Origin: Pseudoalteromonas piratica
GTDB lineage: Bacteria > Pseudomonadota > Gammaproteobacteria > Enterobacterales > Alteromonadaceae
Length of the DNA stretch: 64,000 bases
Direction of reading: 5' to 3'
NCBI RefSeq assembly: GCF_000788395.1
Contig: NZ_CP009888.1
Span: 1,756,001-1,820,000, forward strand
A program made the position numbers and the translations under genes. The notes under the pieces were generated by a model, which saw nothing but the letters and a program-made list of their open reading frames with translations, had not been told where the DNA came from and made no database searches. This document shows, piece by piece, positions 42,366 through 64,000 of the stretch. Position 1 is the first letter of the stretch. The number at the start of each line of letters is the position of its first letter.

Positions 42366-42412
42366 TGTCAGGACGTGTAAGTAATTGTAATTTTTGTTGC
42401 AGGATTTACATG
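42366..42412. promoter_or_regulatory. Phased TGTA repeats / RstA-box-like site upstream of cassette 1
   Basis: TGTC at 42366, TGTA at 42376 and TGTA at 42386 repeat every 10 bp. Read on the minus strand, 42376-42389 is TACAATTACTTACA, matching the E. coli RstA box TACATNTNGTTACA at ten of twelve defined positions. TTTACATG at 42405-42412 also occurs, in the same orientation to the gene, upstream of cassette 2. The consensus is from memory of published E. coli work; function here is inferred. Confidence 0.4.
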
Positions 42413-42452: not shown

Positions 42453-43262
42453 TTGAAGCACCTTATTTACATTGCGATAGTGTGTTTTAGCTTATGTTCA
42501 AATGCTAGACAAACGAATGAACTGATTAACCCAGGGCAACTGCGCTTGGGAATAGCATTTGGCATGGGCACAATTACCAACCCATTACATGATGGCGATA
42601 ACTTTCCATTAGTGCTAATACCTGATATTGCATACTATGGCGAGCGGTTTTATTTCGATAACGGCCAATTAGGCTTCACATTTTTAGAAAAAAATCGCCA
42701 TGTAGTGAGTGTTGTTTCCGAGTTTAACCCCGAAAATCGCTTTTTTGTTACTTGGCACCCTGCCAACGTATTTATTAATAGAAACGCTTTCACGGAACCA
42801 GCATCACGAGACAGGATATCCATTTCTGAAATAAATCGTCCCGACTGGGCATTGGATGGGGGGGTTAATTATCAGTATATCGCAGAATCATGGCGTTTTT
42901 CTGCCGATGTTCTGCATGATATTAGCGGAGTTCATTCAGGTCATCGTGTGGCATTAAGCCTTGCCAAGGGCTGGTATTTTGATTCAGGGGTTTTGAGTGT
43001 GCGTTTGGGGCTAGATTATTTATCTCACAAACTCGCAGATTATTATTATGGTATTCAGGCCGACGATAACGTTGATCTAATTTTTGAGCAAGATGCCGCA
43101 TTTTTGCCGGCACTTGAACTCAGTTGGCAAATGCCTATTAATGAGCGTTTTGGTTTGCTTGCAAAAATAAAATACCACAATCTTGGTTCTTTAAGTGATA
43201 GTCCTTTATTTTCGAGTGATGAGAGCGTGACAATATTTACTGGGGTGACTCATGTTTTTTAA
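42453..43262 (+). CDS. MipA/OmpV family outer-membrane protein (cassette 1)
   Basis: Predicted small outer-membrane beta-barrel of 269 residues. TTG start with GGAGATAGG just upstream; signal peptide IYIAIVCFSLCSNA. The body shows MipA/OmpV features: GIAFGMGTITNPLHDGDNFPLVLIPDIAYYGERFYFDNGQLGF (about 30-72), DVLHDISGVHSGHRVALSLAKGW (about 152-174), LGLDYLSHKLADYYYGI (about 186-202) and a terminal aromatic residue (GVTHVF). E. coli MipA links the murein hydrolase MltA to PBP1B. Its stop overlaps the DUF3019 gene by 11 bp, and the cassette continues into an RstA/RstB-like pair. A paralogue is at 62045. Confidence 0.85.
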   Translation: MKHLIYIAIVCFSLCSNARQTNELINPGQLRLGIAFGMGTITNPLHDGDNFPLVLIPDIAYYGERFYFDNGQLGFTFLEKNRHVVSVVSEFNPENRFFVTWHPANVFINRNAFTEPASRDRISISEINRPDWALDGGVNYQYIAESWRFSADVLHDISGVHSGHRVALSLAKGWYFDSGVLSVRLGLDYLSHKLADYYYGIQADDNVDLIFEQDAAFLPALELSWQMPINERFGLLAKIKYHNLGSLSDSPLFSSDESVTIFTGVTHVF

Positions 43263-43635
43263 ATATTGTATGCTGGTAGTATGTTTATTGAGTACCTGTT
43301 TTGTTTCTGCGGCTGAAAATACAGTGTTTCAGTTAACCCCAGCGGTATGCATGGTGCAAAACAGTGATGATGTTTGTCAGATTAAACTTAATTTTGAGTG
43401 GGAAATAGAAACACCTGCCAATGTGTGTATTTTGCGTGACCAAACCCCACTAAAATGTTGGCAAGATGCAACAAATGGTAATTTTAGTTATAAAGCGGAC
43501 GTTCAGTTTGGCACGGTATACTCCTTAGTGAATCGTAAAAGCGGTGAAAAAATTGCAACGGCTAAAGTCAAAGTGCAAAGCAGTAATAGCAAATTTCAAC
43601 GTAAACGACTTCGTACCCCATGGAGTTTTTTCTAG
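43252..43635 (+). CDS. DUF3019 secreted protein (cassette 1)
   Basis: 127-residue DUF3019 protein with a signal peptide (MLVVCLLSTCFVSAA). Four cysteines in the mature part (VCMVQNSDDVC, NVCILRD and LKCWQD) could form two disulfides, giving a small beta-sandwich-like domain. It ends with a basic/aromatic tail (FQRKRLRTPWSFF). Function unknown. It lies between an outer-membrane MipA-like gene (11-bp overlap) and a response regulator (9-bp gap), so a periplasmic signalling or sensing role is an inference from context. A paralogue at 61630 shares the layout, cysteine pattern and tail. Confidence 0.82.
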   Translation: MFFKYCMLVVCLLSTCFVSAAENTVFQLTPAVCMVQNSDDVCQIKLNFEWEIETPANVCILRDQTPLKCWQDATNGNFSYKADVQFGTVYSLVNRKSGEKIATAKVKVQSSNSKFQRKRLRTPWSFF

Positions 43636-43644
43636 GAGATACTA

Positions 43645-44331
43645 ATGGCACACATTTTATTAGTAGAAGATGATTTAGCCTTACAACAACTAACAAAAGA
43701 TTACCTCGAGCATAATGGTATGACGGTCGATGTTTTGAGTAATGGCGCTGATGTGATGGCGGCACTTGAAACAAATATGCCTGACTTAATGATTTTAGAT
43801 GTGATGTTGCCCGGTAAAGATGGCTTTAGCGTGTGCCGAGAAGTGCGTGACCGCTATCAGTTACCTATTCTGATGCTAACTGCGAAGGGTGAAGACTTTG
43901 ATCAAGTTATCGGTTTAGAACTTGGTGCCGATGATTACGTTATCAAACCTGCAGAACCACGTGTTTTACTGGCACGTATTTCAGCATTACTGCGTCGTGG
44001 CGCGGTAGAAAAAAGTACTGATGAATTGCGTTTTGGCACACTGACTATTGATAAAAATAGTCGAATCGTCAAATTGATGGGCAATGAGGTCAGTCTGACC
44101 TCTCATGAATTTGAATTATTATGGCTGCTGTCTAACAGTGCTGGTCAAGTATTAAGTCGCGACTTTGTACATGAAAAAATGATTGGTCGTGAATATGATG
44201 GGCTTGATAGAACCGTTGATGTACGCGTTTCACGACTGCGTAAAAAGCTGGGTGACAACAGTGACAAACCATATCGAATTAAAACGGTTTGGGGACAAGG
44301 ATATTTATTTGTGTCAGATGCTTGGGGTTAG
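43645..44331 (+). CDS. RstA-type response regulator (cassette 1)
   Basis: OmpR/PhoB-family DNA-binding response regulator of 228 residues. Receiver domain with acidic pocket LLVEDD (5-10) and phospho-acceptor Asp52 (LMILDVMLPGKDG). Instead of the usual KPF it has VIKPAEPRVLLARI, and the C-terminal winged helix ends REYDGLDRTVDVRVSRLRKKLGD ... YRIKTVWGQGYLFVSDAW. That closely parallels E. coli RstA (SYDGLDRSVDVAISRLRKKL ... GYLFAPHAW). AGGAG precedes the ATG. It probably regulates its own operon through the TGTA/TACA repeats at 42366. Partner kinase is next. Confidence 0.92.
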   Translation: MAHILLVEDDLALQQLTKDYLEHNGMTVDVLSNGADVMAALETNMPDLMILDVMLPGKDGFSVCREVRDRYQLPILMLTAKGEDFDQVIGLELGADDYVIKPAEPRVLLARISALLRRGAVEKSTDELRFGTLTIDKNSRIVKLMGNEVSLTSHEFELLWLLSNSAGQVLSRDFVHEKMIGREYDGLDRTVDVRVSRLRKKLGDNSDKPYRIKTVWGQGYLFVSDAWG

Positions 44332-44353
44332 TTATAACTCCCTAGGAGATTAG

Positions 44354-45604
44354 ATGGGCAAGTTATTTCTTAGCCTCTATGCCTACATAATCATATCTAT
44401 TTTTATTTTAAGTGGCGCGCTTGAAAAGCTATGGCCGGAACCAACGGGCATTGAAGCGTTGCCGCTTGCGCCGCAAGTGAGTGCATCAATTTCAGCATTA
44501 GCTGATACACCTCAAGGTATTGATAAGTTGAAACGAATTTATCAAAACCAAGTCATTCCTACCGACCAAATTGCATTTTTACCTGAACAATTAACCAATT
44601 TGCAGAAGGGGCAGGCGGTTCCCGTGTTTGATGGACCAAAGCAAGTGATTTGGTATCTTCAATTGAACCCTCAACACCTGCTTAAAATTGGCCCTTATCG
44701 CTTTGACAGTAATAGCTACGATTCAATTTGGCCATTTATCATCATGCTAATGGTAATCGGAGTTCCCGTTGCGGCATGGAGTTATTGGCTGTGGCGCGAT
44801 TTTAATCAGCTTGAGCATGCATGTAATAACATCAATGCACCTGAAGATTTGCAATTAAACGGTAATGATAAATCAGCGCTGTTGCCAATTAAGCAAACTT
44901 TAATTGCAATGAAAGAGCGCATCAAGCACCTACTTGATAGCCAACGTGACCTGACATCATCGGTTTCACATGAATTTAGAACGCCGCTAGCAAGGCTTAA
45001 ATTTGCCATCGCTATGCTAGATGATTTGCATAGTAATGAAAAAAGTAAACCGTATTTAGAGAGCATGCAGTCAGATATTCAGGAGCTTGAATCTTTGGTG
45101 ACTGAAATGCTGGAATTCGCCAAGTTAGAGCGGGAAAAACCAACACTTAACTTAGAACACTATGATGTGGTTGAGCAAGTCACTGTACTTGCAAATAAAC
45201 TGGGGTTTGGCAGTGATATCAATATAAAGATCGAGGCAAAACCAACACTTCTGATTACGGCAGATGCACATTTTATTGGCAGAGCAATGCAAAACTTTAT
45301 TGGTAATGCATTGAAATACGCCGAACAGCAAATTAGCATATCCATCATTCAAGAAGCAGACAGTGTTGTGTTGAAAGTTGCTGATGATGGCATTGGCATA
45401 GAGCAATCGCAATGGGACGATGTATTTAAACCGTTCACGCGCCTAGATAAAAGCCGCAATAAAAAAATCAAAGGATTTGGTTTAGGATTAGCGATTGTGC
45501 AAAAAATTATCACTTGGCATAGCGGTTGTTGTTACTTAGAAAAAAGCCCGTTAGGTGGTGCTTGCTTTGTGATGAGGCTCCCCCAAGAAAATTTAATCAA
45601 GTAA
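44354..45604 (+). CDS. RstB-type sensor histidine kinase (cassette 1)
   Basis: Inner-membrane histidine kinase of 416 residues. N-terminal helix (about 4-22), a short periplasmic sensor (about 23-122) and a second helix (about 124-147) precede the dimerisation domain with His206 in SVSHEFRTPLARLKF. The ATP-binding domain has N box FIGNALKYAEQ (about 313), G1 VADDGIGI and G2 KGFGLGLAIVQKI. All catalytic motifs are present. The small sensor (about 100 residues) is similar in size to RstB. It ends the four-gene cassette; the next gene starts 170 bp on behind a Fur box. Confidence 0.92.
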   Translation: MGKLFLSLYAYIIISIFILSGALEKLWPEPTGIEALPLAPQVSASISALADTPQGIDKLKRIYQNQVIPTDQIAFLPEQLTNLQKGQAVPVFDGPKQVIWYLQLNPQHLLKIGPYRFDSNSYDSIWPFIIMLMVIGVPVAAWSYWLWRDFNQLEHACNNINAPEDLQLNGNDKSALLPIKQTLIAMKERIKHLLDSQRDLTSSVSHEFRTPLARLKFAIAMLDDLHSNEKSKPYLESMQSDIQELESLVTEMLEFAKLEREKPTLNLEHYDVVEQVTVLANKLGFGSDINIKIEAKPTLLITADAHFIGRAMQNFIGNALKYAEQQISISIIQEADSVVLKVADDGIGIEQSQWDDVFKPFTRLDKSRNKKIKGFGLGLAIVQKIITWHSGCCYLEKSPLGGACFVMRLPQENLIK

Positions 45605-45690: not shown

Positions 45691-45709
45691 AATGAGATTG
45701 ATTCTCATT
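45691..45709. promoter_or_regulatory. Fur box upstream of the DUF4856/imelysin/TonB operon
   Basis: AATGAGATTGATTCTCATT is a 19-bp interrupted palindrome (AATGAGA / TCTCATT). It agrees with the proteobacterial Fur pattern AATGANAATNATTNTCATT at all defined positions but one. It lies 70 bp before the DUF4856 ATG. It strongly suggests iron repression of the genes that follow. Confidence 0.8.
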
Positions 45710-45778
45710 GGATTTGAGGTTTATAATAGCGTTAGTTTAAAAATCTTCACTAATAAAAATTATTTAATAGGTCTAACA

Positions 45779-47569
45779 ATGATTAATCTTCGCAAATCTG
45801 CATTAGCATCTGCTGTACTTGCAGCGGCAATTGGTTTAACTGGTTGTGGTGGTAGTGATAGTAAAGACTCTGGTGAAACACCGGTAACGCCTCCTACAAA
45901 TCAAGCACCTACTGATATTCAAGTTTCTACATCTATGATTACTGAAGATACACTGGGTGTAGTTGTTGGTGCATTAACTGCAACTGATGATGCAACAAGC
46001 GGACATACATTCACTGTTTCTGATGAACGTTTTGAAATTGTTGATGGTGAACTTAAAGTTAAAAATCATTTAGCGATTAACTTTGAACAAGAAACAGAAG
46101 TTACTGTGAGCGTAACTGTAACTGATGCAGATGGCTTAACTTTCACAAAAGACTTAACGCTTAATGTAGCTGATGTTGATGCGGTTGCTGGCGTAAATAC
46201 CTATGAATTTAATTCAAAACTAGGTGAGGGTTCTTCAGTTTCTTACACAGGTCAAACTGCGCGTCATGCACTTTCGGCAGAAATCAAACACTACATGGGT
46301 TTAATGTCAGTTGAGTACATCGAGACTAATGGCATTATGGCTGCTGATGTAAGAGCTAAACTAGATGCACTTTGGGGTGATTATGCGGCGGTTGCAGACT
46401 CATCTATTTCTCATCTAGGCTCAGATTTATCAGCTTATAAGCAAAAGTCATTTTCTGAAATTTCAAGCACAGGCAAAGAGTTAAGTGGCAAAATTGCAGG
46501 TAATGATGCAAGCAAAATGTATCAGGATTGGTTAGTAGCTGGCACGTTCAAAGGCTGGAATGATTTCGGTACACGCGCTGCAACGCCTGAAGGCTTAGTT
46601 GAGCATTACTTTGATTTATTTATTGCTCAAATTGAAAAAGTAAACGCAGGTGAAGCATTAGTTGATGCAAATGGCGTAGCAATTGCGCATGCCTACATCA
46701 CACCTGAAGGTTTAGATTTAGTTCAACTAGTTCAAAAGCATACCTTAGGTGCACTAATGTTCTCACAAGGTGCTGATGACTACCTTGGTGAAGGTCTTGA
46801 GACAGACAATAAAGTAGCGCAGAAAGAGTCAGCAAAATACACAGCTCTTGAGCACCAATTTGATGAAGGTTTCGGCTACTTTGGCGCTGCGCGAAACTAC
46901 CTTGAATACTCAGATGAAGAAATTGCGAAAAAAGGTGGCCGTGAAGACTACCAAGGCAAAAACGACACGAACCTTGATGGTGTAATCGATCTGGCGTCAG
47001 AGTTTGTATGGGGCAACTCTTCAAATGCAGCAAAACGTGACCTTGGCGCAACGGTAACAACTGACCTAACGGCGCAGGCAATGCTTCACTTTATTGCTGG
47101 TCGTAAAATGATTACTGATAACCATGGTTCAGACCTAAGCGAGTTCTCAGCTGACGACCAAGCTAAATTCCGCGAGCATGTTTTCCAAGCTGTAAATGCG
47201 TGGGAAAAAGCAATTGCTGCAACAGTTGTTCATTACATTAACGACGTGATTGCTGATATTGAAAACATTGAAGACGGTGAATATACCTCGGCAGAATTTG
47301 CAAACTATGCAAAGCATTGGGGTGAAATGAAAGGCTTTGCTCTTAACTTCCAATTCAACCCATATTCACCGTTTGCAAATCATGAGTCGAATCCGAAGAA
47401 AGATACTGTAGGTGAAGCAAAATTTGTGGAAATGCATGACTTATTCGGCGACATGCCAGTACTTGCTGACGCTGATGCATTTGCACAGTACAAAGCACAA
47501 TTAATTGCAGCGCGCGATATTTTAGATGATGCGTTTGATTTTGAAGACGCGAACTCTGAAAACTGGTAA
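45779..47569 (+). CDS. DUF4856 lipoprotein with cadherin-like domain, iron-regulated
   Basis: Predicted surface or periplasmic lipoprotein of 596 residues. The frame opens at 45692 inside the Fur box, but the real start is the ATG at 45779, giving MINLRKSALASAV and lipobox GLTGC (Cys23). Order: Pro/Thr linker, cadherin-like beta-sandwich (about 40-130, ending LTLNVADVDA), then a DUF4856 domain beginning TYEFNSKLGEGSSVSYTGQTARHALSAEI (about 140-168). DUF4856 genes are often paired with imelysin genes, as here. Function is unknown; iron or heme capture at the surface is inferred from the Fur box, the imelysin partner and the TonB receptor downstream. It is followed by an intra-operon hairpin. 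Confidence 0.8.
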   Translation: MINLRKSALASAVLAAAIGLTGCGGSDSKDSGETPVTPPTNQAPTDIQVSTSMITEDTLGVVVGALTATDDATSGHTFTVSDERFEIVDGELKVKNHLAINFEQETEVTVSVTVTDADGLTFTKDLTLNVADVDAVAGVNTYEFNSKLGEGSSVSYTGQTARHALSAEIKHYMGLMSVEYIETNGIMAADVRAKLDALWGDYAAVADSSISHLGSDLSAYKQKSFSEISSTGKELSGKIAGNDASKMYQDWLVAGTFKGWNDFGTRAATPEGLVEHYFDLFIAQIEKVNAGEALVDANGVAIAHAYITPEGLDLVQLVQKHTLGALMFSQGADDYLGEGLETDNKVAQKESAKYTALEHQFDEGFGYFGAARNYLEYSDEEIAKKGGREDYQGKNDTNLDGVIDLASEFVWGNSSNAAKRDLGATVTTDLTAQAMLHFIAGRKMITDNHGSDLSEFSADDQAKFREHVFQAVNAWEKAIAATVVHYINDVIADIENIEDGEYTSAEFANYAKHWGEMKGFALNFQFNPYSPFANHESNPKKDTVGEAKFVEMHDLFGDMPVLADADAFAQYKAQLIAARDILDDAFDFEDANSENW

Positions 47570-47591
47570 TTTAAAAAACGCTTAAATTAAT

Positions 47592-47623
47592 AAAAGGTTA
47601 GTGACTTAGGTCACTAACCTTTT
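47592..47623 (+). terminator. Strong hairpin between DUF4856 and imelysin genes
   Basis: AAAAGGTTAGTGAC / GTCACTAACCTTTT, a 14-bp perfect stem with loop TTAG. The T-run is only four bases, so it may be a partial terminator that lowers expression of the downstream imelysin and receptor genes relative to the first gene. Confidence 0.7.
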
Positions 47624-47658
47624 GCTGTATTTATTATTCGAGATTTTAGGATAAATTT

Positions 47659-48942
47659 ATGTTGATATCCGCAAAACTTAAACCGATAGCACTTGCGACC
47701 TCTTTAGTTCTCACTTTAGCTGCATGCTCTGAAGACACAACAAGTACGCAAGGCCCAAATTTCGGCGGTGGCACAACTGACCCAGGTAATGGCGGTGGTA
47801 CCAATTTTGACGAAAAAGCCTTGGTTGCCAATTTAGTTGATAATGTAATTACTCCAACATTTACAGCCTTTAACCAGCAAGCTACTGCAAATCATGCAAC
47901 GTTAAGCCAGTATTGTTCAGTTGAAAAAGCAGCTGCACTCGGCGAAGCATCAGAAGAGCAACGACTTGATGCGTTAACAAATGCGCAAACTAGTTGGCGA
48001 GATACCACAACCCTTTGGCAACATGCAGAAGTGATGCAAATGGGTCCGCTGGTTGAGAATGAAGGTGAGCTGCGTAATTTAATTTATTCATGGCCTGCGA
48101 AAAGTTTATGTGGCGTCGATCAAGATACGGCATATTTTGAAGATGGTGTAATTAATTTAGATTCAAACAGGCCTTATGATATTAAGCAGCGCACGGCAAC
48201 TCGCCGTGGCCTGGTAAGTCTCGAGCACCTCCTTTTCTCTGAACAATTAAATCACAGCTGTTCGATTGCTAATGATGCACTTGCTGATTGGAATAACAGA
48301 ACGGATAGTGAGCGTCGTATTGCACGTTGTGAATTCGCTGTTGAAGTGGCAAGTGACCTTGTTGATAACAGCCAAGTGCTTTTAGACAAATGGAATGGTG
48401 ACACGGGTTATGCAATGACGCTTAAAAATGCAGGCGAGGTTGGCAGTAGCTTCGATTCTGCTCACCAGGCGGTCAATGTAATCTCTGACGCATTATTTTA
48501 CTTAACAGAAGAAGTAAAAGATAAAAAGCTAGGGATTCCTCTTGGTTATGAGAGTAACTCATGTGGTTTAGAAGCGTGTCCTCAGGACGTTGAATCGCCA
48601 ATCGCTGCGCAGTCATTAGCTAATATCCAAGCAAATTTAGCGGCTTTTGAAAAACTCTTTACAGGCAATGGTTCGGTTGAAGGTAACACCACAGGCTTTG
48701 ATGATTTTCTTGTTGAGGAAGAAGGAGCGGACACCAAAGATGCGATGTTAACAGGCCTACAAGAATCTAATCAGGTAATTGAGTCAATTAATGGTTCACT
48801 TCAGCAAGCGCTAGTAAGTGAAAAAGAAAAAGTTGAACAGACACATGCCAAAGTAAAGGATGTGACCGATCAACTTAAACATGATTTTATAAATAAGCTT
48901 GCCCTTGAGCTACCAAAATCTTCCGCTGGTGATAATGACTAG
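47659..48942 (+). CDS. Imelysin (M75)-like lipoprotein, motif His missing
   Basis: Lipoprotein of 427 residues (lipobox TLAAC near residue 23) with an imelysin-like four-helix-bundle domain: TPTFTAFNQQATANHATLSQYC, NAQTSWRDTTTLWQHAEVMQMGP and RNLIYSWPAKSLCG, then a second bundle half with SQVLLDKWNG. Imelysins (IrpA, EfeO-M75, ICMP) are iron-uptake proteins carrying a GxHxxE motif. Here the matching position reads RRGLVSLEHLLF, so the motif is G-L-V-S-L-E with Val where His is expected. AGGA precedes the ATG. It sits between the DUF4856 lipoprotein and a FecA-like receptor in a Fur-headed unit. Probably an iron-acquisition accessory; the metal ligand set must differ. Confidence 0.8.
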   Translation: MLISAKLKPIALATSLVLTLAACSEDTTSTQGPNFGGGTTDPGNGGGTNFDEKALVANLVDNVITPTFTAFNQQATANHATLSQYCSVEKAAALGEASEEQRLDALTNAQTSWRDTTTLWQHAEVMQMGPLVENEGELRNLIYSWPAKSLCGVDQDTAYFEDGVINLDSNRPYDIKQRTATRRGLVSLEHLLFSEQLNHSCSIANDALADWNNRTDSERRIARCEFAVEVASDLVDNSQVLLDKWNGDTGYAMTLKNAGEVGSSFDSAHQAVNVISDALFYLTEEVKDKKLGIPLGYESNSCGLEACPQDVESPIAAQSLANIQANLAAFEKLFTGNGSVEGNTTGFDDFLVEEEGADTKDAMLTGLQESNQVIESINGSLQQALVSEKEKVEQTHAKVKDVTDQLKHDFINKLALELPKSSAGDND

Positions 48943-48948
48943 AGCTTT

Positions 48949-51162
48949 ATGAACATGAAAAAAACACTATTAGCATTAGCAATTGCAAGTTGCACCACAC
49001 CTGTTTTAGCTGATGAGCAAAAAGCCAATAAAGATGATATTGAGCACATAACAATAATTAGTCATGGTGATAAGCTTCGCACTGAGTCAGGCTCTGCAAC
49101 ACTGCTCTCCGAAGTCGAATTAGAAAAATATGAATACGATGATATTCACCGTATTTTGGCTAAAGTACCGGGTGTAAATATTCGTGAAGAAGATGGTTAT
49201 GGCTTACGTCCAAACATTGGTTTTCGTGGTGTAACACCAGAGCGCAGTAAAAAAGTAACTATTTTAGAAGACGGTGTGTTAATTGGCCCGGCGCCATATT
49301 CAGCCGCAGCAGCATATTATTTCCCTGTTACCACGCGTATGACGGCTGTAGAGGTCTTTAAAGGTCCTGCAGCAATTAAACATGGGCCGCAAACTGTGGC
49401 AGGCGCGCTAAATATGGTAACACGCCAAGTACCTTTTGAACTTACTGCAGGGATTGATATTGCCGCGGGCAGTGATGGTTATGCTAAAGCGCATGGTTAT
49501 TTTGGCACTGACGTCAGTAAAAATTTAGGTGTGTTAGTTGAAGCAGTACGCCTGCAAGCGGATGGCTTTAAAGAAATCGACAATGGTGGCGATTCAGGCT
49601 TTGAAAAAAATGACTTCTTATTCAAAACCAAATATTTACTTGATGGTGAACAGTTTGATCAAAGTTTTGAATTTAAGCTTTCGTATGCCGATGAAAACTC
49701 AGATGAAACCTATTTGGGTTTAACTGACGCTGATTTTAAAGCGAACCCTTACCGTCGCTATGCTGCATCACAGCCTGCCAATATGGATACTGAGCATTCG
49801 CAGTTTATGTTTACTCATAATGTAACAAATGATGTGTTTTCAATGACCACACGTTTGTATCGTAACGATTATGAGCGTGCATGGCGTAAGCTTGGAAAAT
49901 TAACAGGCTCAAATGCAAGTTTATCAGATATTATGACCGATCCGCTATATTACGAACGTGAATACAACGTGATATCGGGCCAGCAAAATTCTGTTGAAGC
50001 AGGCTCTAATGCCATGTTTTTGGTGATGGGCACCAATGATCGTGAATACTATTCGCAAGGTCTTCAAATTGATGCAGATTATAATTTCTCACTATTGAAT
50101 CTTGATCATCAATTATCAGTGGGCGTGCGTTACCACGAAGATGAAATTGAGCGTAAGCACTTCGAAGAAAAATATGCAATGACGGACGGTTTTGCAGTGA
50201 GAACCGAAGAAGCGAAAGTATTTACAACGCAAAACATTGAAAGTACAGAAGCTTTATCTATTTACATTGAAGACACGGTTAAGTTCGGTGACTTAACGGT
50301 ATCTGCGGGTGTGCGCGGTGAAGACATGGATATGTTCTATACCGACACGGTTGATAAAGATGATTGGCAACGTAAATCGACAACCATTTGGTTACCGGGT
50401 GTCAGTGGGTTTTATCAACTGACCGAAAATGCAGGTGTTCTTTTTGGTGTGCACCAAGGCTTTGTACCAAGCAGCCCAAAACAAGACTCAGAGATTGAAG
50501 TTGAAAAGAGCATTAATTACGAATTTGGTGGCCGTTTTAATGATGGGGCAACTAACTTTGAAATTGTTAGCTTTTTTAATGACTACAGCAACTTAAAAGA
50601 AAGTTGCTCACAATCAAGCTGCGGCATTGATGAGGAACTTGACCAAGAGTTTAACGGTGGCGAAGTGAATGTGTATGGTGTGGAAGCGCAACTTGCGCAA
50701 AGCTATCCAATCAGCACGCAATTCGATATGCCGTATAGCTTTACTTATACCTATACAAAATCTGAGTTTCAAAATGATTTAAATTCTGACTTTGTGCAAT
50801 GGGGTAAAGTTGAAGCGGGAGATTCACTTCCTTACCTTCCTGATCATCAACTGAACTTTGAAATTGGCCTTGCTGCAAATAATTGGGAAACCAATCTTAA
50901 TTTCAAATATGTCAGTGAAATGAAAGAAGTTGCAGGTGAAGTTGTTGATAAACCAGTTGGCGTTAATACTCTAGAGGGTGTTAAGACTGACGCTAGTCTC
51001 ATTATTGACCTTTCAGCGAGCTACGATCTTGGCGAATACGGCCGTATCTATGGTAAAGTTGATAACTTAACTGATGAAGCTTATATTGTCAGCCGTCGCC
51101 CATATGGTGCAAGACCAAGCAAACCAAGACAGTTTGTAATTGGATATAAATACCAATTCTAA
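48949..51162 (+). CDS. FecA-like TonB-dependent siderophore receptor
   Basis: Outer-membrane TonB-dependent receptor of 737 residues: signal peptide (MKKTLLALAIASCTTPVLA), plug with PGVNIREEDGYGLRPNIGFRGVTPERSKKVTILEDGVLIGPAPYSAAAAYYFP-type signature (about 72-125) that resembles FecA (ferric dicitrate) and related receptors, and a barrel ending FVIGYKYQF. No FecI/FecR pair or N-terminal signalling domain is present, so control is probably by Fur alone. Starts 6 bp after the imelysin stop. Likely imports a ferric complex delivered or captured by the two lipoproteins; ligand unknown. Confidence 0.92.
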   Translation: MNMKKTLLALAIASCTTPVLADEQKANKDDIEHITIISHGDKLRTESGSATLLSEVELEKYEYDDIHRILAKVPGVNIREEDGYGLRPNIGFRGVTPERSKKVTILEDGVLIGPAPYSAAAAYYFPVTTRMTAVEVFKGPAAIKHGPQTVAGALNMVTRQVPFELTAGIDIAAGSDGYAKAHGYFGTDVSKNLGVLVEAVRLQADGFKEIDNGGDSGFEKNDFLFKTKYLLDGEQFDQSFEFKLSYADENSDETYLGLTDADFKANPYRRYAASQPANMDTEHSQFMFTHNVTNDVFSMTTRLYRNDYERAWRKLGKLTGSNASLSDIMTDPLYYEREYNVISGQQNSVEAGSNAMFLVMGTNDREYYSQGLQIDADYNFSLLNLDHQLSVGVRYHEDEIERKHFEEKYAMTDGFAVRTEEAKVFTTQNIESTEALSIYIEDTVKFGDLTVSAGVRGEDMDMFYTDTVDKDDWQRKSTTIWLPGVSGFYQLTENAGVLFGVHQGFVPSSPKQDSEIEVEKSINYEFGGRFNDGATNFEIVSFFNDYSNLKESCSQSSCGIDEELDQEFNGGEVNVYGVEAQLAQSYPISTQFDMPYSFTYTYTKSEFQNDLNSDFVQWGKVEAGDSLPYLPDHQLNFEIGLAANNWETNLNFKYVSEMKEVAGEVVDKPVGVNTLEGVKTDASLIIDLSASYDLGEYGRIYGKVDNLTDEAYIVSRRPYGARPSKPRQFVIGYKYQF

Positions 51163-51181
51163 CTTTTTTGACATTGCGATT

Positions 51182-51204
51182 AAGGGGCATTTTGCCCCTT
51201 TTTT
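51182..51204 (+). terminator. Rho-independent terminator after the FecA-like gene
   Basis: AAGGGGCA / TGCCCCTT stem with a TTT loop and a T-run. It separates the receptor from the downstream hydroxylase gene, whose ribosome binding site begins within a few bases. Confidence 0.88.
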
Positions 51205-51216
51205 GTAGGAACTGTT

Positions 51217-52221
51217 GTGTTAGAACTACTTACTAAAAGTTTAAGCGAATTACCGAGTTATTTTAGTGATGCTAACAAGCGCATTTTTTATATTTATTTA
51301 TTAAGTGCGGTGGCTTTGGCATTACCCGTATATTTCGCCGCTTCCACTAAACGAAGCCCTGTTGGCTTTCTAAAGTTTCTTTTTCCTAAATCTGTTTGGC
51401 TTGCTAAGAGTGCTAAGCAAGATTACGCCCTTTGGGTTGCGAACAAACTGTTAAAAGCATTATTATTTGGTCCAATTGTATTGACCATGGCACCGATTGC
51501 TATTGCATTAAGTGATTTGTTGGAATGGTCATTTGGTCATATCGAGCCAATAGCACTTGCGAAATGGCAAATCATTACCTTTTTTACATTTTTACTTTTT
51601 ATAATCGACGATTTTACGCGTTTTTTACTGCATTACGCGCTACATAAAGTCCCATTTTTATGGGAGTTTCACAAAGTACACCACAGTGCCAAAGTACTTA
51701 CACCGTTTACCATTTATCGTTCGCACCCTGTTGAGAGTTATTTATACGCGTGTCGTATGGCAATCGTGCAGGGCACTGCAGTCGGAATAGGGTATTACTT
51801 GTTTGCCGATGCCATTAGCATGTTTGATGTGCTTGGCGCCAATGTATTTGTCTTTTTGTTTAATTTATTTGGTTCCAATTTACGTCACTCACATATTTGG
51901 TTGTCTTGGGGTGATAAGCTAGAGGGGATATTTATTAGCCCAGCACAGCATCAAATTCATCATAGTGATAATCCCCAACACTTTGATACTAATCTTGGCT
52001 CAGCACTTGCGATTTGGGACAGAATGACTGGGACCCTAATTAAGGCATCTGAAGTGGGTAAAATTTCGATAGGTGTTGGCCAATATGATTGTGGTCATGA
52101 CTCACTTTTTGCAATTTATACAAAACCGTTTATTGAATCAGCCAAATCATTAAATCTCAGCGTCAAAAAAGGCGTAACTAAATTACGCCTCAATAAACAT
52201 ACGGATAAAACGCGCGGCTAA
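51217..52221 (+). CDS. Fatty acid hydroxylase / sterol desaturase family protein
   Basis: Integral-membrane di-iron oxygenase-family protein of 334 residues. The eight-histidine pattern is present: HYALH (about 139-143), FHKVHHS (about 152-158), the later HSH, and QHQIHHSDNPQHFD (about 247-260). Several membrane helices surround it. Start is GTG with TAGGA 7 bp upstream. The terminator just ahead makes it a separate or read-through unit behind the iron cluster. It needs iron itself, so co-location may be regulatory or incidental. The lipid substrate is unknown. Confidence 0.87.
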   Translation: MLELLTKSLSELPSYFSDANKRIFYIYLLSAVALALPVYFAASTKRSPVGFLKFLFPKSVWLAKSAKQDYALWVANKLLKALLFGPIVLTMAPIAIALSDLLEWSFGHIEPIALAKWQIITFFTFLLFIIDDFTRFLLHYALHKVPFLWEFHKVHHSAKVLTPFTIYRSHPVESYLYACRMAIVQGTAVGIGYYLFADAISMFDVLGANVFVFLFNLFGSNLRHSHIWLSWGDKLEGIFISPAQHQIHHSDNPQHFDTNLGSALAIWDRMTGTLIKASEVGKISIGVGQYDCGHDSLFAIYTKPFIESAKSLNLSVKKGVTKLRLNKHTDKTRG

Positions 52222-59617: not shown

Positions 59618-60928
59618 TTACCAAGTGCCTGTTTTGTTTTTTAAATGACAGCGATGAGGCAGGCGTAAAGTAAACTTTGCACCCCCTAGTGACTTAGAGC
59701 GCGACACTTTAATTTCACCAAAATGCCAAGCTATCACTTTTGCTACAATTGCCAGTCCTAAGCCAAAATTTTTGGCTGCGCGGTTACGGTGACTTTCTTG
59801 CTGAAAAAAGGGTTTCAATACGTTATCGAGGTTTTCTTCATCAATGCCTGGACCGTCATCTTCAATCTCTATATAGGTATCGCTGTGTGTTTGAGTGGTG
59901 CTGATAGTAATACGTGTTTTGGCAAAATCAGTCGCGTTACTAAGTAAATTCACAATAGCGCGTGCTAACCAGTGAGGGTCAACATACAGTAGATAATCTT
60001 CTGCTTTTATATCTAATTTGATTGATTGTGCTTGTAGTTTGGGTGCTACTTGATGGACACAGTTCTCAAATAACTCTGAACTGGAGATCGATGTTGGTGA
60101 AATCTGATATGATTTTTGCTCTAAGGTTGCATACTCTAAATAACGATTAAGCATCGACTCCATCTGATCCAAATCACCTTCCATTCGCGCCAGATAATGC
60201 TTAATTTTTTCAGAGTCATGACTGTCAATTGCTGCATCTAGGCCAAATCTTAGGCAAGCAAGCGGCGTGCGAATGTCGTGAGACATACTTGATGCTAATA
60301 ACTGGTTTTCTTCAATCAATTGCTGAATTTGGTCAGCCATTCGATTGTAACTGGTTTCAAGTTCGCGGATATAACTAAGCCCAGTTAAGTTGATGCGCGC
60401 ATCCAAGTTGCCGTTGGCAAATTGGGCGGTTGCTTTGTTCAGCAGACTCAAACGTTTCGTTAATGGCGCAAGCCACCACCACATGAAGATACAGATGCCA
60501 AGATAAAAACCAACAGTTAAAAATAAATCAGTTCGATTAGCAGGCATCGGGGGCTTTTCAACGCGAAGCTGAACATGGTGATCCGCTAATGCCTCACTGG
60601 TTTGAATTAAATAAAAGCCTAATTCATCTTCAAGTGTAATCCCACCAGGGATCAGCAATTGTGAGTGAAGTTCAATTGGTAAAGCTAATTCCGCATTATC
60701 ATGATAGCTTAAACTAAAGTGGCTCGATTCAGCAAAGCGGTTCAACCACGCTTGATGTTGGTCGCTTGGGTGTTGAGCCATCTCAGACACCACACCGGCA
60801 AGTACTTGCTTCTCAAGTTTAAAATTATCTAGATTACTGGGTGGAGCACTTAATGAGTCTATCAGCCAGCCAAGGATAAAGGATGATATTAATGCACCTG
60901 TGATCAGGCTGATATAGAGTTTCTTCAT
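59618..60928 (-). CDS. RstB-type sensor histidine kinase (cassette 2)
   Basis: Inner-membrane histidine kinase of 436 residues: helix (about 5-27), periplasmic sensor (about 28-133), second helix (about 134-152), HAMP-like linker (LTKRLSLLNKATAQFANGNLDARI), dimerisation domain with His217 (SSMSHDIRTPLACLRF), then N box LLSNATDFAKT, G1 IEDDGPGIDEEN and G2 KNFGLGLAIVAKV. All catalytic motifs are intact. It starts 3 bp after the response-regulator gene and is paralogous to the kinase at 44354. Its sensor differs clearly in sequence, so the two cassettes may respond to different cues. Confidence 0.92.
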   Translation of the reverse strand: MKKLYISLITGALISSFILGWLIDSLSAPPSNLDNFKLEKQVLAGVVSEMAQHPSDQHQAWLNRFAESSHFSLSYHDNAELALPIELHSQLLIPGGITLEDELGFYLIQTSEALADHHVQLRVEKPPMPANRTDLFLTVGFYLGICIFMWWWLAPLTKRLSLLNKATAQFANGNLDARINLTGLSYIRELETSYNRMADQIQQLIEENQLLASSMSHDIRTPLACLRFGLDAAIDSHDSEKIKHYLARMEGDLDQMESMLNRYLEYATLEQKSYQISPTSISSSELFENCVHQVAPKLQAQSIKLDIKAEDYLLYVDPHWLARAIVNLLSNATDFAKTRITISTTQTHSDTYIEIEDDGPGIDEENLDNVLKPFFQQESHRNRAAKNFGLGLAIVAKVIAWHFGEIKVSRSKSLGGAKFTLRLPHRCHLKNKTGTW

Positions 60929-60931
60929 TGA

Positions 60932-61630
60932 TTACCAAGCTTGGCTAACAAATAAGTAGCCTTTCCCCCAAATGGTTTTGATTTTATTTGGGCTTTGTGG
61001 GTCATCACCAATTTTCTTGCGAAGCGCAGAAATAAGGACATCAACGCTGCGATCTAAACCATCGTATTCACGCCCTTTAGTGGCTAAAAACACACTATCG
61101 CGATCGAGAATTTGATCTGCATTTGAAGCTAAGAAAAACAATAATGAATACTCGGCATTAGACAGCGCAAGCTTTTCTTTATTCATAAATACATCGCGCG
61201 ATAGGGTATCGATTTGTAAACTGCCAATGCTGATTTCATCGGTGTTTGTATCGGAGTTACCTTGTTTTTCTCTGAGTACAGCATTAATGCGAGCCAGCAA
61301 AACACGCGGACGAACAGGTTTAATGACATAATCACTTGCGCCTACTTCAAGGCCAAGCACTTCATCTATTTCGTCACCTTTAGCTGTCATCATAATAATT
61401 GGCTGGTGGAAAAACACACGTAGATCTCGGCACACACTCATACCATCTTTACCAGGTAGCATAAGATCAAGCAGTACTAGATCAGGGTTGTGTTTTTTAA
61501 CTGCCTGTACTGCTTCGTCGCCACGTTGGCATAACACAACTTCGAAACCTTGCTCAACTAAATACTCACTCACCCATTGGGCGAGGGATGTGTCGTCTTC
61601 AACTAATAGTATTTTCTTTGCAACATCCAT
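60932..61630 (-). CDS. RstA-type response regulator (cassette 2)
   Basis: OmpR-family regulator of about 232 residues. Receiver Asp55 lies in LVLLDLMLPGKDG; the C-terminal part has KPVRPRVLLARI, GREYDGLDRSVDVLISALRKKIGD and IKTIWGKGYLFVSQAW, closely matching E. coli RstA and the regulator at 43645. The frame is open to an ATG at 61645, but GGAGG inside that extension is the ribosome binding site for the ATG at 61630, whose first base is shared with the DUF3019 stop (TAATG). It probably controls its own operon through the TACA repeats at 62932-62977. Confidence 0.92.
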   Translation of the reverse strand: MDVAKKILLVEDDTSLAQWVSEYLVEQGFEVVLCQRGDEAVQAVKKHNPDLVLLDLMLPGKDGMSVCRDLRVFFHQPIIMMTAKGDEIDEVLGLEVGASDYVIKPVRPRVLLARINAVLREKQGNSDTNTDEISIGSLQIDTLSRDVFMNKEKLALSNAEYSLLFFLASNADQILDRDSVFLATKGREYDGLDRSVDVLISALRKKIGDDPQSPNKIKTIWGKGYLFVSQAW

Positions 61631-62055
61631 TAAAACAGCCTCCATCGACGCTTTTTACGTTTATTGGTGTAAACCCAATTTACTTTCATTTCTACTTGTT
61701 CACTGACTTGGCCTGAACCAATTTCAACCAGTTCATAGCGTTTTGCATCAGGTGAGTTAAATTCGCTTTCTAATTCGCCAAATGTGCTGTTATACCAACA
61801 GCGAATGAGTTTTTGATCACTTACCGTGCGAATACAATAATCGCCGCGAACAGGTGCGTGCCATTGAAACTTCAATTTAGTGTAACAGTGCTTGCCTTGG
61901 CGAAGAGCTACACACTTCTCTGGAAAGATAGCAAGCTCAGGATTAGCAAACGGGTTATTTACCGGTAATTCAGTACTCGCAAAACTCCCGTTAGCGACAA
62001 CGAAAAGTGCTGCCAGCTTGAGCTTTATTAAGATAAACTTAAGGTTAAAATACAT
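61630..62055 (-). CDS. DUF3019 secreted protein (cassette 2)
   Basis: DUF3019 protein of about 141 residues with an N-terminal signal (FILIKLKLAALFVVANGSFAS). Cysteine pattern PEKCVALRQGKHCYTKLKFQWH ... DYCIRTVSDQKLIRCWYN mirrors the cassette 1 protein (C-V/M, C, C-I-R, C-W). The terminus is basic/aromatic (NKRKKRRWRLF). ATG at 62055 is preferred to a TTG at 62067; it overlaps mipA2 by 11 bp, the same overlap as in cassette 1. Function unknown. Confidence 0.8.
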   Translation of the reverse strand: MYFNLKFILIKLKLAALFVVANGSFASTELPVNNPFANPELAIFPEKCVALRQGKHCYTKLKFQWHAPVRGDYCIRTVSDQKLIRCWYNSTFGELESEFNSPDAKRYELVEIGSGQVSEQVEMKVNWVYTNKRKKRRWRLF

Positions 62056-62881
62056 AGCGAATGCCAACCTTAGCTCTGTGCGTGATACTGTTGCTAATCA
62101 GTGGACTGTCGCTGATTTCTTTCGAATACCAAGATGATAACCAACCACCTAAAAACACCCAATTTTCATTAATTGGGTATTCAGAATGAAATTCAAAGGT
62201 AACGCTGTAGGCAACACTTGGATCATAAATCGGCCTAGCATTTTCAATTGCTTCACTGGCATCTACACCAAAATAATACCCTGTAAACTCGGATGAATAG
62301 ATATTGAGACCAGAGCCAACGCGAAACTCCCAATTTCGATAATCTTGAATGGTACTAATAAAACCACTGGCCCACAGGCTTTTGTGTGCGCCGGAAATGT
62401 CTTGCAATAATTCAAAAGATACTTGGTGTGTTTTCTGCTTTCGAGTGAGTCTAAAGCCAGCATTAAAATCACTTTCTCTTTCTCTTATTCCCTGAAGTTC
62501 AAACACTAAATCGTTATTATAGTAAGTGCCCGTTTGATCAAATCCTTCATGAGCATTGATAGCAAATAAATCGAGACTCCAATCATATTTATCTACTAGG
62601 TTGTAACCCACTGTAAGCCCACCAGATAACTGAGAATTATCAACGTCGAAATAAAATTTATCGTAATTGATGGCAATATTGATATTTAGTTCGAGCCCAT
62701 CTTGGTAATCCACACCCTGAAGGTAATGCTTATCGATGTAGTAACCTGCACCAAAACTCCAATCCCAAGTAAAGCCATCACTTGCTTCAAGCGTATTGTC
62801 GGCATAAAGACGGTTACTGGCCTGGCTTGGTGCGGAAACAAGAATGGCGATAAAAAGTAGTGTGATTGTGAGTTTGTTCAT
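62045..62881 (-). CDS. MipA/OmpV family outer-membrane protein (cassette 2)
   Basis: Outer-membrane barrel protein of 278 residues with signal peptide ILVSAPSQA. Family features match cassette 1: SFGAGYYIDKHYLQGVDYQDGLELNINIAINYDKFYFD, FELLQDISGAHKSLWASGF (about 150-168, cf. VLHDISGVHSGH), FRVGSGLNIYSSEFTGYYFGVDASEA and a final RYVF with terminal aromatic. The mature sequences are clearly divergent, so this is an old duplication or separate acquisition. The start has no strong ribosome binding site. It heads the cassette and is divergent from a serine hydrolase gene across a 185-bp region with RstA-box-like repeats. Confidence 0.84.
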   Translation of the reverse strand: MNKLTITLLFIAILVSAPSQASNRLYADNTLEASDGFTWDWSFGAGYYIDKHYLQGVDYQDGLELNINIAINYDKFYFDVDNSQLSGGLTVGYNLVDKYDWSLDLFAINAHEGFDQTGTYYNNDLVFELQGIRERESDFNAGFRLTRKQKTHQVSFELLQDISGAHKSLWASGFISTIQDYRNWEFRVGSGLNIYSSEFTGYYFGVDASEAIENARPIYDPSVAYSVTFEFHSEYPINENWVFLGGWLSSWYSKEISDSPLISNSITHRAKVGIRYVF

Positions 62882-62931: not shown

Positions 62932-62977
62932 TGTATAAATGTGTAGTGCACATGTAAAAAAATGTAGTGTAAGTGTG
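62932..62977. promoter_or_regulatory. Phased TGTA/TACA repeat array between cassette 2 and serine hydrolase
   Basis: TGTA occurs at 62932, 62942, 62953 and 62963, with TGTG at 62974: a 10-11 bp helical repeat. On the minus strand, 62953-62966 reads TACATTTTTTTACA, which fits the E. coli RstA box TACATNTNGTTACA with one mismatch. It sits about 50-95 bp ahead of mipA2 and about 90-135 bp ahead of the serine hydrolase, so one array could serve both. Confidence 0.5.
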
Positions 62978-63066
62978 CAATTAAAAATAAATTAACAATT
63001 TTTCCTGCATCAATTCGTGTTGCTTGTTAAACTATGTGCGTAATTATTCCGAGAATAGCGATATAT

Positions 63067-64000
63067 ATGCGGTTTTTGTTTTTCTCATTCCTCTTGAGTG
63101 TACATTCTTTCACCTTTGCTGACAGCCTTGATAATGCTGGGCAGAGTGTTGATTTTGAAAAATTTGTTAAAAGCTATAAGCAATCCATGGTCAAAAAGCT
63201 GCGCAAAAAAGGCATTCCAGGTGCTGCGCTTTCTGTTGTCAAAGTCGATGGGGGAGAGTTTGCTTATGGCTATGGTAAAACAAAGCGTGTAGGTGGAAAT
63301 CCTGTTGATAGCAATACGCGCTTTCGCTTAGCGTCTGTATCAAAAACATTTGCAGGGTCTTTAGCCGCCAAGTTAGCGACGCAAGGGCAGCTTCAGTTGG
63401 ATGATACTGTCACTAAGTACTTGCCTGACTTTCATTTCCATAGCCGCGACAAAAAATTACGCGTATCACATCTGCTAAGCCATAGTAGCGGCTTAGTACC
63501 CAATGCCTATGATAATTTGATTGAGTCACGTATGGCGTATGACAAAATTAAGGCTAAACTGGCTGACGTTGAGCCAATTTGCTCACCGGGCAGATGTTAT
63601 GGTTATCAAAATGTCATGTTTAGTTTAATTGGCGATGTCATTGAGCAATCAACAAGCATGGACTACGACACTTGGGTTAATGAATTTTTGTTTAAACCAC
63701 TCAATATGAAAAACGCGAGCTTAGGCATGAAGGCAATGGTTAAAGATGACAATTATGCACATCCTCATGTGAGAGCTCGAAAGCGTTGGTATACCACTAA
63801 ATTAAAACCTAATTACTATAAAGTTGCGCCAGCTGCCGGCGTTAATGCCAGTGCCAGTGATATGGTGCAGTGGTTAAAAGCGCAGTTAGGTGAGTATCCG
63901 AGCGTATTATCGAAAGAATCGTTAGCGCTACAGGCAACACCTCATATTAATACTAAAAAAGAGTTAAAACGACGAGTTTGGCGATCAAATCTTAAAAAGG
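63067..64000 (+). CDS. Serine beta-lactamase-like hydrolase, 3' end outside window
   Basis: Beta-lactamase/PBP-fold serine hydrolase (class C/esterase EstB/DD-peptidase-like superfamily), about 311 residues visible from the ATG at 63067, no stop before the edge. Signal peptide MRFLFFSFLLSVHSFTFA. Nucleophile motif SVSK (about residues 97-100, in RLASVSKTFAG), second motif Tyr-x-Asn in YGYQNVMF (about 179-181), and the SHLLSHSSGL segment (about 136-145) typical of the family. The KTG-like third motif lies past the window. It probably acts on peptidoglycan peptides or esters in the periplasm. Divergent from the MipA/DUF3019/RstAB cassette. Confidence 0.88.
   Translation, partial: MRFLFFSFLLSVHSFTFADSLDNAGQSVDFEKFVKSYKQSMVKKLRKKGIPGAALSVVKVDGGEFAYGYGKTKRVGGNPVDSNTRFRLASVSKTFAGSLAAKLATQGQLQLDDTVTKYLPDFHFHSRDKKLRVSHLLSHSSGLVPNAYDNLIESRMAYDKIKAKLADVEPICSPGRCYGYQNVMFSLIGDVIEQSTSMDYDTWVNEFLFKPLNMKNASLGMKAMVKDDNYAHPHVRARKRWYTTKLKPNYYKVAPAAGVNASASDMVQWLKAQLGEYPSVLSKESLALQATPHINTKKELKRRVWRSNLKK

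Follow-up and report, generated by a model that had tools for sequence, protein, structure and literature searches.

RcsF sensing carries information from the outer to the inner membrane by means of a lipoprotein. The same idea, in which an outer-membrane protein and its periplasmic partner inform a sensor in the inner membrane, is found in NlpE-CpxA, where NlpE is also a lipoprotein (PMC10936184, in excerpt). In Pseudomonas aeruginosa a MipA-family barrel is involved: MipB-MipA is a proposed polymyxin co-sensor that would signal from the outer membrane to the kinase of ParRS, with polymyxin binding measured (same excerpt). Here we describe a four-gene cassette that resembles these systems in idea and occurs twice in a 64,000-nucleotide stretch of the Pseudoalteromonas piratica genome (contig NZ_CP009888.1, positions 1,756,001 to 1,820,000; hereafter the window). 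Each copy encodes, in order, a MipA/OmpV-family outer-membrane barrel, a DUF3019 protein, an RstA-type response regulator and an RstB-type sensor histidine kinase. We propose, at a probability of roughly 45%, that MipA-DUF3019 and the linked kinase pair form a self-regulated envelope co-sensing module.

The P. aeruginosa system is the closest of those described, combining in one region a MipA-family barrel, a periplasmic-side partner and a two-component pair. There mipBA forms an operon under ParR, separate from but beside parRS, whereas here a single four-gene order is found; and unlike MipB, a lipoprotein of beta-lactamase fold, the cassette partner belongs to PF11456 and is modelled as a beta sandwich (PMC10936184, in excerpt). 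Vibrio cholerae carRS-ompV-virK similarly places an OmpV/MipA gene beside an RstAB-like pair, and ompV is reported among the CarR ChIP-seq targets. Its carRS lies upstream of ompV, however, with virK downstream, in contrast to mipA-DUF3019-regulator-kinase here; Vibrio mimicus ompV is reported as transcribed alone (PMC13413815, PMC9178039; both in excerpt). A preliminary description of this DNA had called the module undescribed and DUF3019 a family of no known function. For DUF3019 this is fair, as no paper, no described function and no account of a MipA-DUF3019-regulator-kinase module were found in the open-access papers searched. A MipA co-sensor beside a two-component system, however, has already been published (PMC10936184); a text search of that paper gave no occurrence of 'DUF', Shewanella or Pseudoalteromonas.

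Copy 1 lies on the forward strand, with mipA at 42453-43262 (PF06629, 105.7 bits; cut-off 24.2), the DUF3019 gene at 43252-43635 (PF11456, 82.3 bits; cut-off 25), the regulator at 43645-44331 and the kinase at 44354-45604. Its mipA starts with TTG, preceded by GGAGAT. Copy 2 is on the reverse strand, with mipA at 62045-62881 (PF06629, 108.2 bits), the DUF3019 gene at 61630-62055 (PF11456, 75.3 bits), the regulator at 60932-61630 (longest frame from 61645) and the kinase, which carries a HAMP domain, at 59618-60928. The cassettes are convergent and about 14 kb apart, measured from the end of copy 1 to the end of copy 2. Gene order, strand and coordinates were thus described correctly for both. 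The regulator and kinase labels stand as a likeness to RstA and RstB and not as a claim of equivalogs: the regulators reached 242 and 254 of 330 bits against NCBIfam RstA (NF007977) and the kinases 218 and 211 of 478 bits against NCBIfam RstB (NF007898), in each case below the cut-off, unlike RstA/RstB of E. coli and Klebsiella. We know of no MipA-DUF3019 partner for that pair.

The family PF11456 was surveyed in genome samples of the genus (n=60), order (n=295), class (n=369) and phylum (n=398). It occurred in 60/60 genus genomes, 65/295 order genomes (25/99 genera), 9/369 class genomes and 18/398 phylum genomes, all 18 within the class. No DUF3019 relatives were found on the viral contigs searched; two Pseudoalteromonas records of more than 1.2 Mb in a plasmid collection carry them. 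Neighbourhoods of up to 6 kb each side were then read for the order sample, where 103 of 104 matches could be placed, the window's two included (G535:C40, at a contig edge, had no frame and was dropped). The exact MipA-DUF3019-regulator-kinase order was present at 92 of the 103 located genes. Four loci have an extra gene between DUF3019 and the regulator. Three keep mipA but are not followed directly by a regulator: L084 is an orphan pair, L118 has no regulator gene, and L121 contributes the first member of a doubled pair. A further three have no mipA, and one has neither mipA nor kinase. Beyond the order, the class yielded seven loci, six with the exact gene order and one (L146) reading regulator-kinase-mipA-DUF3019. 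All 22 extra genus loci, hand-picked mostly for twin cassettes, also had the exact order. The proposal of a fixed gene set, tested here as DUF3019 neighbours, therefore holds: DUF3019 is seldom found away from MipA and a two-component pair. Genes flanking the cassette vary, the commonest flanking cluster within 3.5 kb being seen in 14/84 genomes, so the conserved unit is the four genes. DUF3019 is thereby placed in a single, probably self-regulated set of four genes that spans at least 25 genera of one order, and a previously anonymous family becomes a candidate envelope-sensing component open to testing.

The two window copies are only distantly similar, with identities of 27.5% for MipA, 28.2% for DUF3019, 52.4% for the regulator and 33.0% for the kinase. 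Gene trees were built from 123 complete cassettes, each assigned by its DUF3019 tail to a W-R class, to which copy 2 belongs, or to the remainder. Each of the four trees (DUF3019, MipA, regulator, kinase) needs only 3 changes of tail class, whereas shuffled labels require about 39 on average and never fewer than 33. The copies therefore represent two old classes, and recent duplication was rejected as the source of the twins. Since the same split appears on all four trees, the four genes have largely stayed together since the classes diverged. Twins of this layout are widespread in the genus, with facing DUF3019 gene pairs 9.7-21 kb apart in at least 33/60 genus genomes. Copy-1 DUF3019 has a Pseudoalteromonas relative at 70% identity. 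The window's genome (4.8 Mb) holds two DUF3019 and six MipA genes.

Within the cassette, mipA and the DUF3019 gene form a pair. Reading of the junctions confirmed the reported 11-bp overlap in both copies (ATGTTTTTTAA in copy 1, ATGTATTTTAA in copy 2). The -VF barrel end noted for both copies is also present, although it is no independent coincidence, because ATGTNTTTTAA encodes V-F-stop in the mipA frame. Beyond this overlap, copy 1 has gaps of 9 and 22 bp; in copy 2 the DUF3019 stop and regulator start overlap as TAATG and a 3-bp gap follows. A separate scan gave 75 named copy-2-class loci, all of which (75/75) carry an 11-bp junction of the same kind (ATGT...TAR). In the copy-1 class the mipA/DUF3019 spacing is variable, with many short gaps. 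The pair also shifts as a unit, in tandem as mipA-DUF3019-mipA-DUF3019 in L121 and behind the kinase in L146. We propose that translational coupling would ensure joint production of MipA and DUF3019, which would then work as partners, with the kinase pair as their usual controller. The invariant junction of the copy-2 class and the joint movement would also suit a role for DUF3019 as a folding or stability factor for the MipA barrel, the two-component pair merely setting expression. We regard this as highly unlikely, as MipA without DUF3019 is common (MipA in 194/295 order genomes versus DUF3019 in 65/295) and DUF3019 without adjacent mipA also exists.

Alignment of 131 DUF3019 proteins bore out the four shared cysteines and the basic, aromatic tail first noticed in the two window copies. 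The four cysteines, and also one proline, are present in every sequence (131/131). Mean net charge is +4.8 over the last 14 residues versus -0.2 for other stretches, with a tail tryptophan in 94% and a last phenylalanine in 83%; the window tails read ...RKRLRTPWSFF in copy 1 and ...KRKKRRWRLF in copy 2. The hydrophobic N-terminus and the cysteines suggest secretion, and no standard lipobox was seen by eye in either copy. An AlphaFold2 model gave a beta sandwich, with pLDDT 85-92 for residues 41-110 and about 60 for the tail. Structural matches to this model were mostly Ig/FN3-like with modest scores, and no sequence match to DUF3019 was obtained among solved structures at E up to 10. On this basis DUF3019 is probably periplasmic, with disulfide bonds, a candidate Ig-like fold and a cationic, aromatic tail left free. 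For copy-2 MipA the model has 12 strands (pLDDT 91), and outer-membrane barrels, OmpG, NanC and Tsx among them, account for nearly all of the 50 Foldseek matches listed, though at low TM-scores (TMq 0.18-0.52). Judged on this model, the MipA/OmpV proteins are predicted outer-membrane beta barrels. Their mean net charge is -13.

We hypothesize that the regulator of each cassette binds a TACA-N6-TACA repeat upstream of mipA and so tunes the amount of the whole set. The DNA-binding domains of both regulators have RstA domains as their best matches among solved structures. The E. coli/Klebsiella RstA box is TACANNNNNNTACA, the same TACA-N6-TACA arrangement, and RstA reads its bases through Arg200, Ser201, Val204 and Arg208; on numbering mapped here, each window regulator keeps three of the four, with Ser201 replaced by Thr in copy 1 and Arg208 by Ala in copy 2 (PMC4117788, in excerpt). 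RstA-box-like direct repeats lie upstream of mipA in both copies, TACAATTACTTACA at 42376-42389 (reverse strand) in copy 1 and TACATTTTTTTACA at 62953-62966 (reverse strand) in copy 2, the latter in a region shared with a divergent gene at 63034; a second TACA-N6-TACA repeat precedes copy-2 mipA at 62932-62945 (reverse strand). Across 128 loci, each read from 300 bp before mipA to 60 bp into it, the box was present in 55 regions from 45/83 genomes, both window copies included. By chance, 100 Markov-shuffled sets average 2.6 loci and never exceed 6. Only a spacing of 6 stands out, other spacings from 0 to 17 giving 0-13 loci, and control stretches rarely contain the box (inside mipA 3/128, around the DUF3019 start 0/128, after the kinase 4/124). 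Most sites (49/69) fall 51-120 bp ahead of the predicted mipA start. The evidence is strong for the copy-2 class, with the box in 30/50 loci and always including one read with the cassette; it is thinner for the copy-1 class, as the remaining loci (copy-1 class and variants) have it in 25/78, 22 of them read against the cassette. Overall, the module is probably self-regulated, with binding predicted from the repeats. A genome-wide scan with the pattern TACANNTNNTTACA found 18 sites versus 11 for the reversed control, too few above chance, and we therefore name no regulon targets beyond the two cassettes.

MipA genes lacking DUF3019 served as the control. We hand-picked 20 such loci among those listed, one per genome (about 3.5 kb each), and added the four from the window's own genome. 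None of these (0/24) has an RstA/RstB-like pair arranged as in the cassette, and no RstA- or RstB-like gene lay in about 12.6 kb around each of the window genome's four. At one sampled locus (L353), mipA is flanked by a divergent two-component cluster (kinase match 4e-10, regulators 1e-13 and 2e-53), and at another (L359) a kinase-like frame lies about 1.8 kb away. Two-component linkage as a general trait of MipA in this order was accordingly not seen in the 24 sampled genes. By contrast, most MipA loci in PMC10936184 are stated to adjoin a two-component system, in a different sample of 50 homologs (in excerpt).

This specificity shapes the choice between a sensor and an output. By analogy with MipA-MipB/ParS of P. 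aeruginosa, MipA-DUF3019 would most likely detect a membrane-active cationic compound and signal to the linked RstB-type kinase. A tentative alternative, though one with some claim, is that MipA-DUF3019 is an induced protective output, for instance absorbing cationic peptides, while the kinase senses damage alone; a protective role of this sort was proposed for OmpV in V. mimicus. The frequent regulator box at mipA and the persistence of mipA-DUF3019 without a kinase in one clade agree with this, as do MipA/OmpV genes elsewhere that are polymyxin-induced or under CarR or BesRS (PMC13413815, PMC9178039, PMC9426598; all in excerpt). An output, however, needs no regulator tie in nearly every genome, and the sampled DUF3019-free MipA genes have none in this arrangement; DUF3019 also remains with regulator and kinase where mipA is absent. 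We lean towards co-sensing because the near-obligate kinase link, found only for MipA with DUF3019, exceeds what an output would need, and because of the MipB-MipA/ParS precedent. MipA-DUF3019 may also fill both roles. The cassette thus offers a compact system for asking whether an outer-membrane barrel signals through a periplasmic partner to a kinase, the question raised by MipA-MipB/ParS.

Natural variants lacking one partner provide ready comparisons, as do doubled pairs, and several weigh against co-sensing. Complete cassettes make up 48/75 named copy-2-class loci (46 by position and two shifted loci). The other 27, all from one Pseudoalteromonas clade, hold mipA-DUF3019 with no kinase pair, so the two genes must be useful without a local kinase. 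DUF3019 occurs without mipA directly upstream at 13 loci in four genera, 12 of which keep regulator and kinase; L067 keeps the regulator alone. Because of these 27 kinase-less and 12 mipA-less loci, the linear relay of the preliminary description, from outer membrane through DUF3019 to kinase, has to be weakened: a protein found both without kinase and without mipA is not simply their go-between. Further points count on the same side. The exact box is missing from 73/128 upstream regions (53/78 outside the copy-2 tail class, 20/50 within) and from 400 bp upstream of the four mipA-less order-sample genes. Distance correlations and mirror-tree partial correlations do not single out one partner. 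Finally, acidity is common to MipA and the sensor segment of the kinase (median -7, in 120/123 kinases measured), and charge therefore does not tell the partner of the DUF3019 tail.

Loss of the kinase pair coincides with loss of the box, which occurs in its exact form at 39/48 complete copy-2-class loci versus 0/27 kinase-less ones (Fisher p 5e-13). The p value carries no independent weight, because kinase-pair absence is one change on the tree of 74/75 loci and box loss with kinase loss is one event. Their co-loss fits a box that serves the linked regulator, but records a single event.

The mipA-less loci also bear on whether DUF3019 belongs with the kinase. CpxP acting on CpxA is a model for a periplasmic kinase inhibitor, and DUF3019 could be a similar accessory of the RstB-type kinase, with MipA merely co-regulated. 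DUF3019-regulator-kinase sets without mipA in 12 loci and the pairing of an acidic sensor segment with a basic tail speak for this. It is nevertheless improbable, given that DUF3019 accompanies mipA with no local kinase in 27 loci and that its gene overlaps mipA. Genus g273 adds a further point: its 10 mipA-less DUF3019 proteins keep the tail tryptophan but end polar (WGNP, WGSQ, WGTQ, WGTP), whereas all 37 encoded with mipA end hydrophobic. Hydrophobic ends are nonetheless kept in the three remaining mipA-less lineages. Tail charges run from +1 to +3 in the four order-sample genes that lack mipA, compared to a mean of +4.8 (range 2-7) in 119 full cassettes. As a marker of MipA dependence tail charge is weak, since g273 genes with mipA also range from +1 to +5 and three of four mipA-less lineages end hydrophobic.

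A more specific form of co-sensing, which we consider unlikely, would make DUF3019 a built-in ligand mimic. Its tail would sit in the acidic MipA barrel from the periplasm until displaced by cationic antimicrobials; freed DUF3019 would then switch the RstB-type kinase, and the regulator would reset the amount of MipA and DUF3019 via the RstA box.

Individual cassettes show further variation. In L118 (G519) the kinase directly follows mipA-DUF3019 with no room for a regulator; L115 and L125 from the same genus are full cassettes. L050:5761-7041 joins DUF3019 and regulator in one 426-aa frame with no stop after DUF3019, a topologically odd arrangement that could reflect a sequencing error, the assembly being fragmented; this read-through frame was excluded from alignments, but its architecture is counted in the 92. 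A second small barrel-like protein ending SYRF or SKRF lies between DUF3019 and the regulator at L119:5084-5818, L123:5147-5839 and L124:4995-5702, where DUF3019 ends FFRIF or FWRVF; that of L119 has no Pfam match.

Between the window cassettes, 45692-52221 holds genes for a DUF4856 protein, an imelysin (PF09375), a TonB-dependent receptor and a fatty-acid hydroxylase, perhaps an iron-uptake set. Divergent from copy-2 mipA is a PF00144 beta-lactamase-family gene (394 aa; 63034-63999 in the window, running past its end, and in full L264:4035-5219), which shares the upstream region, including the RstA-like box, with that mipA. A PF00144-type gene is upstream and divergent in 11/84 genomes of the sample. 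A PF00144 gene at L266:4082-5257 (a region also covered by L075) interrupts a cassette that is otherwise normal, standing between DUF3019 and the regulator; the N-terminus of its protein is lipoprotein-like. These PF00144 genes adjoining cassettes, at the copy-2 flank and in L075, bring MipB to mind, and their position may be more than chance.

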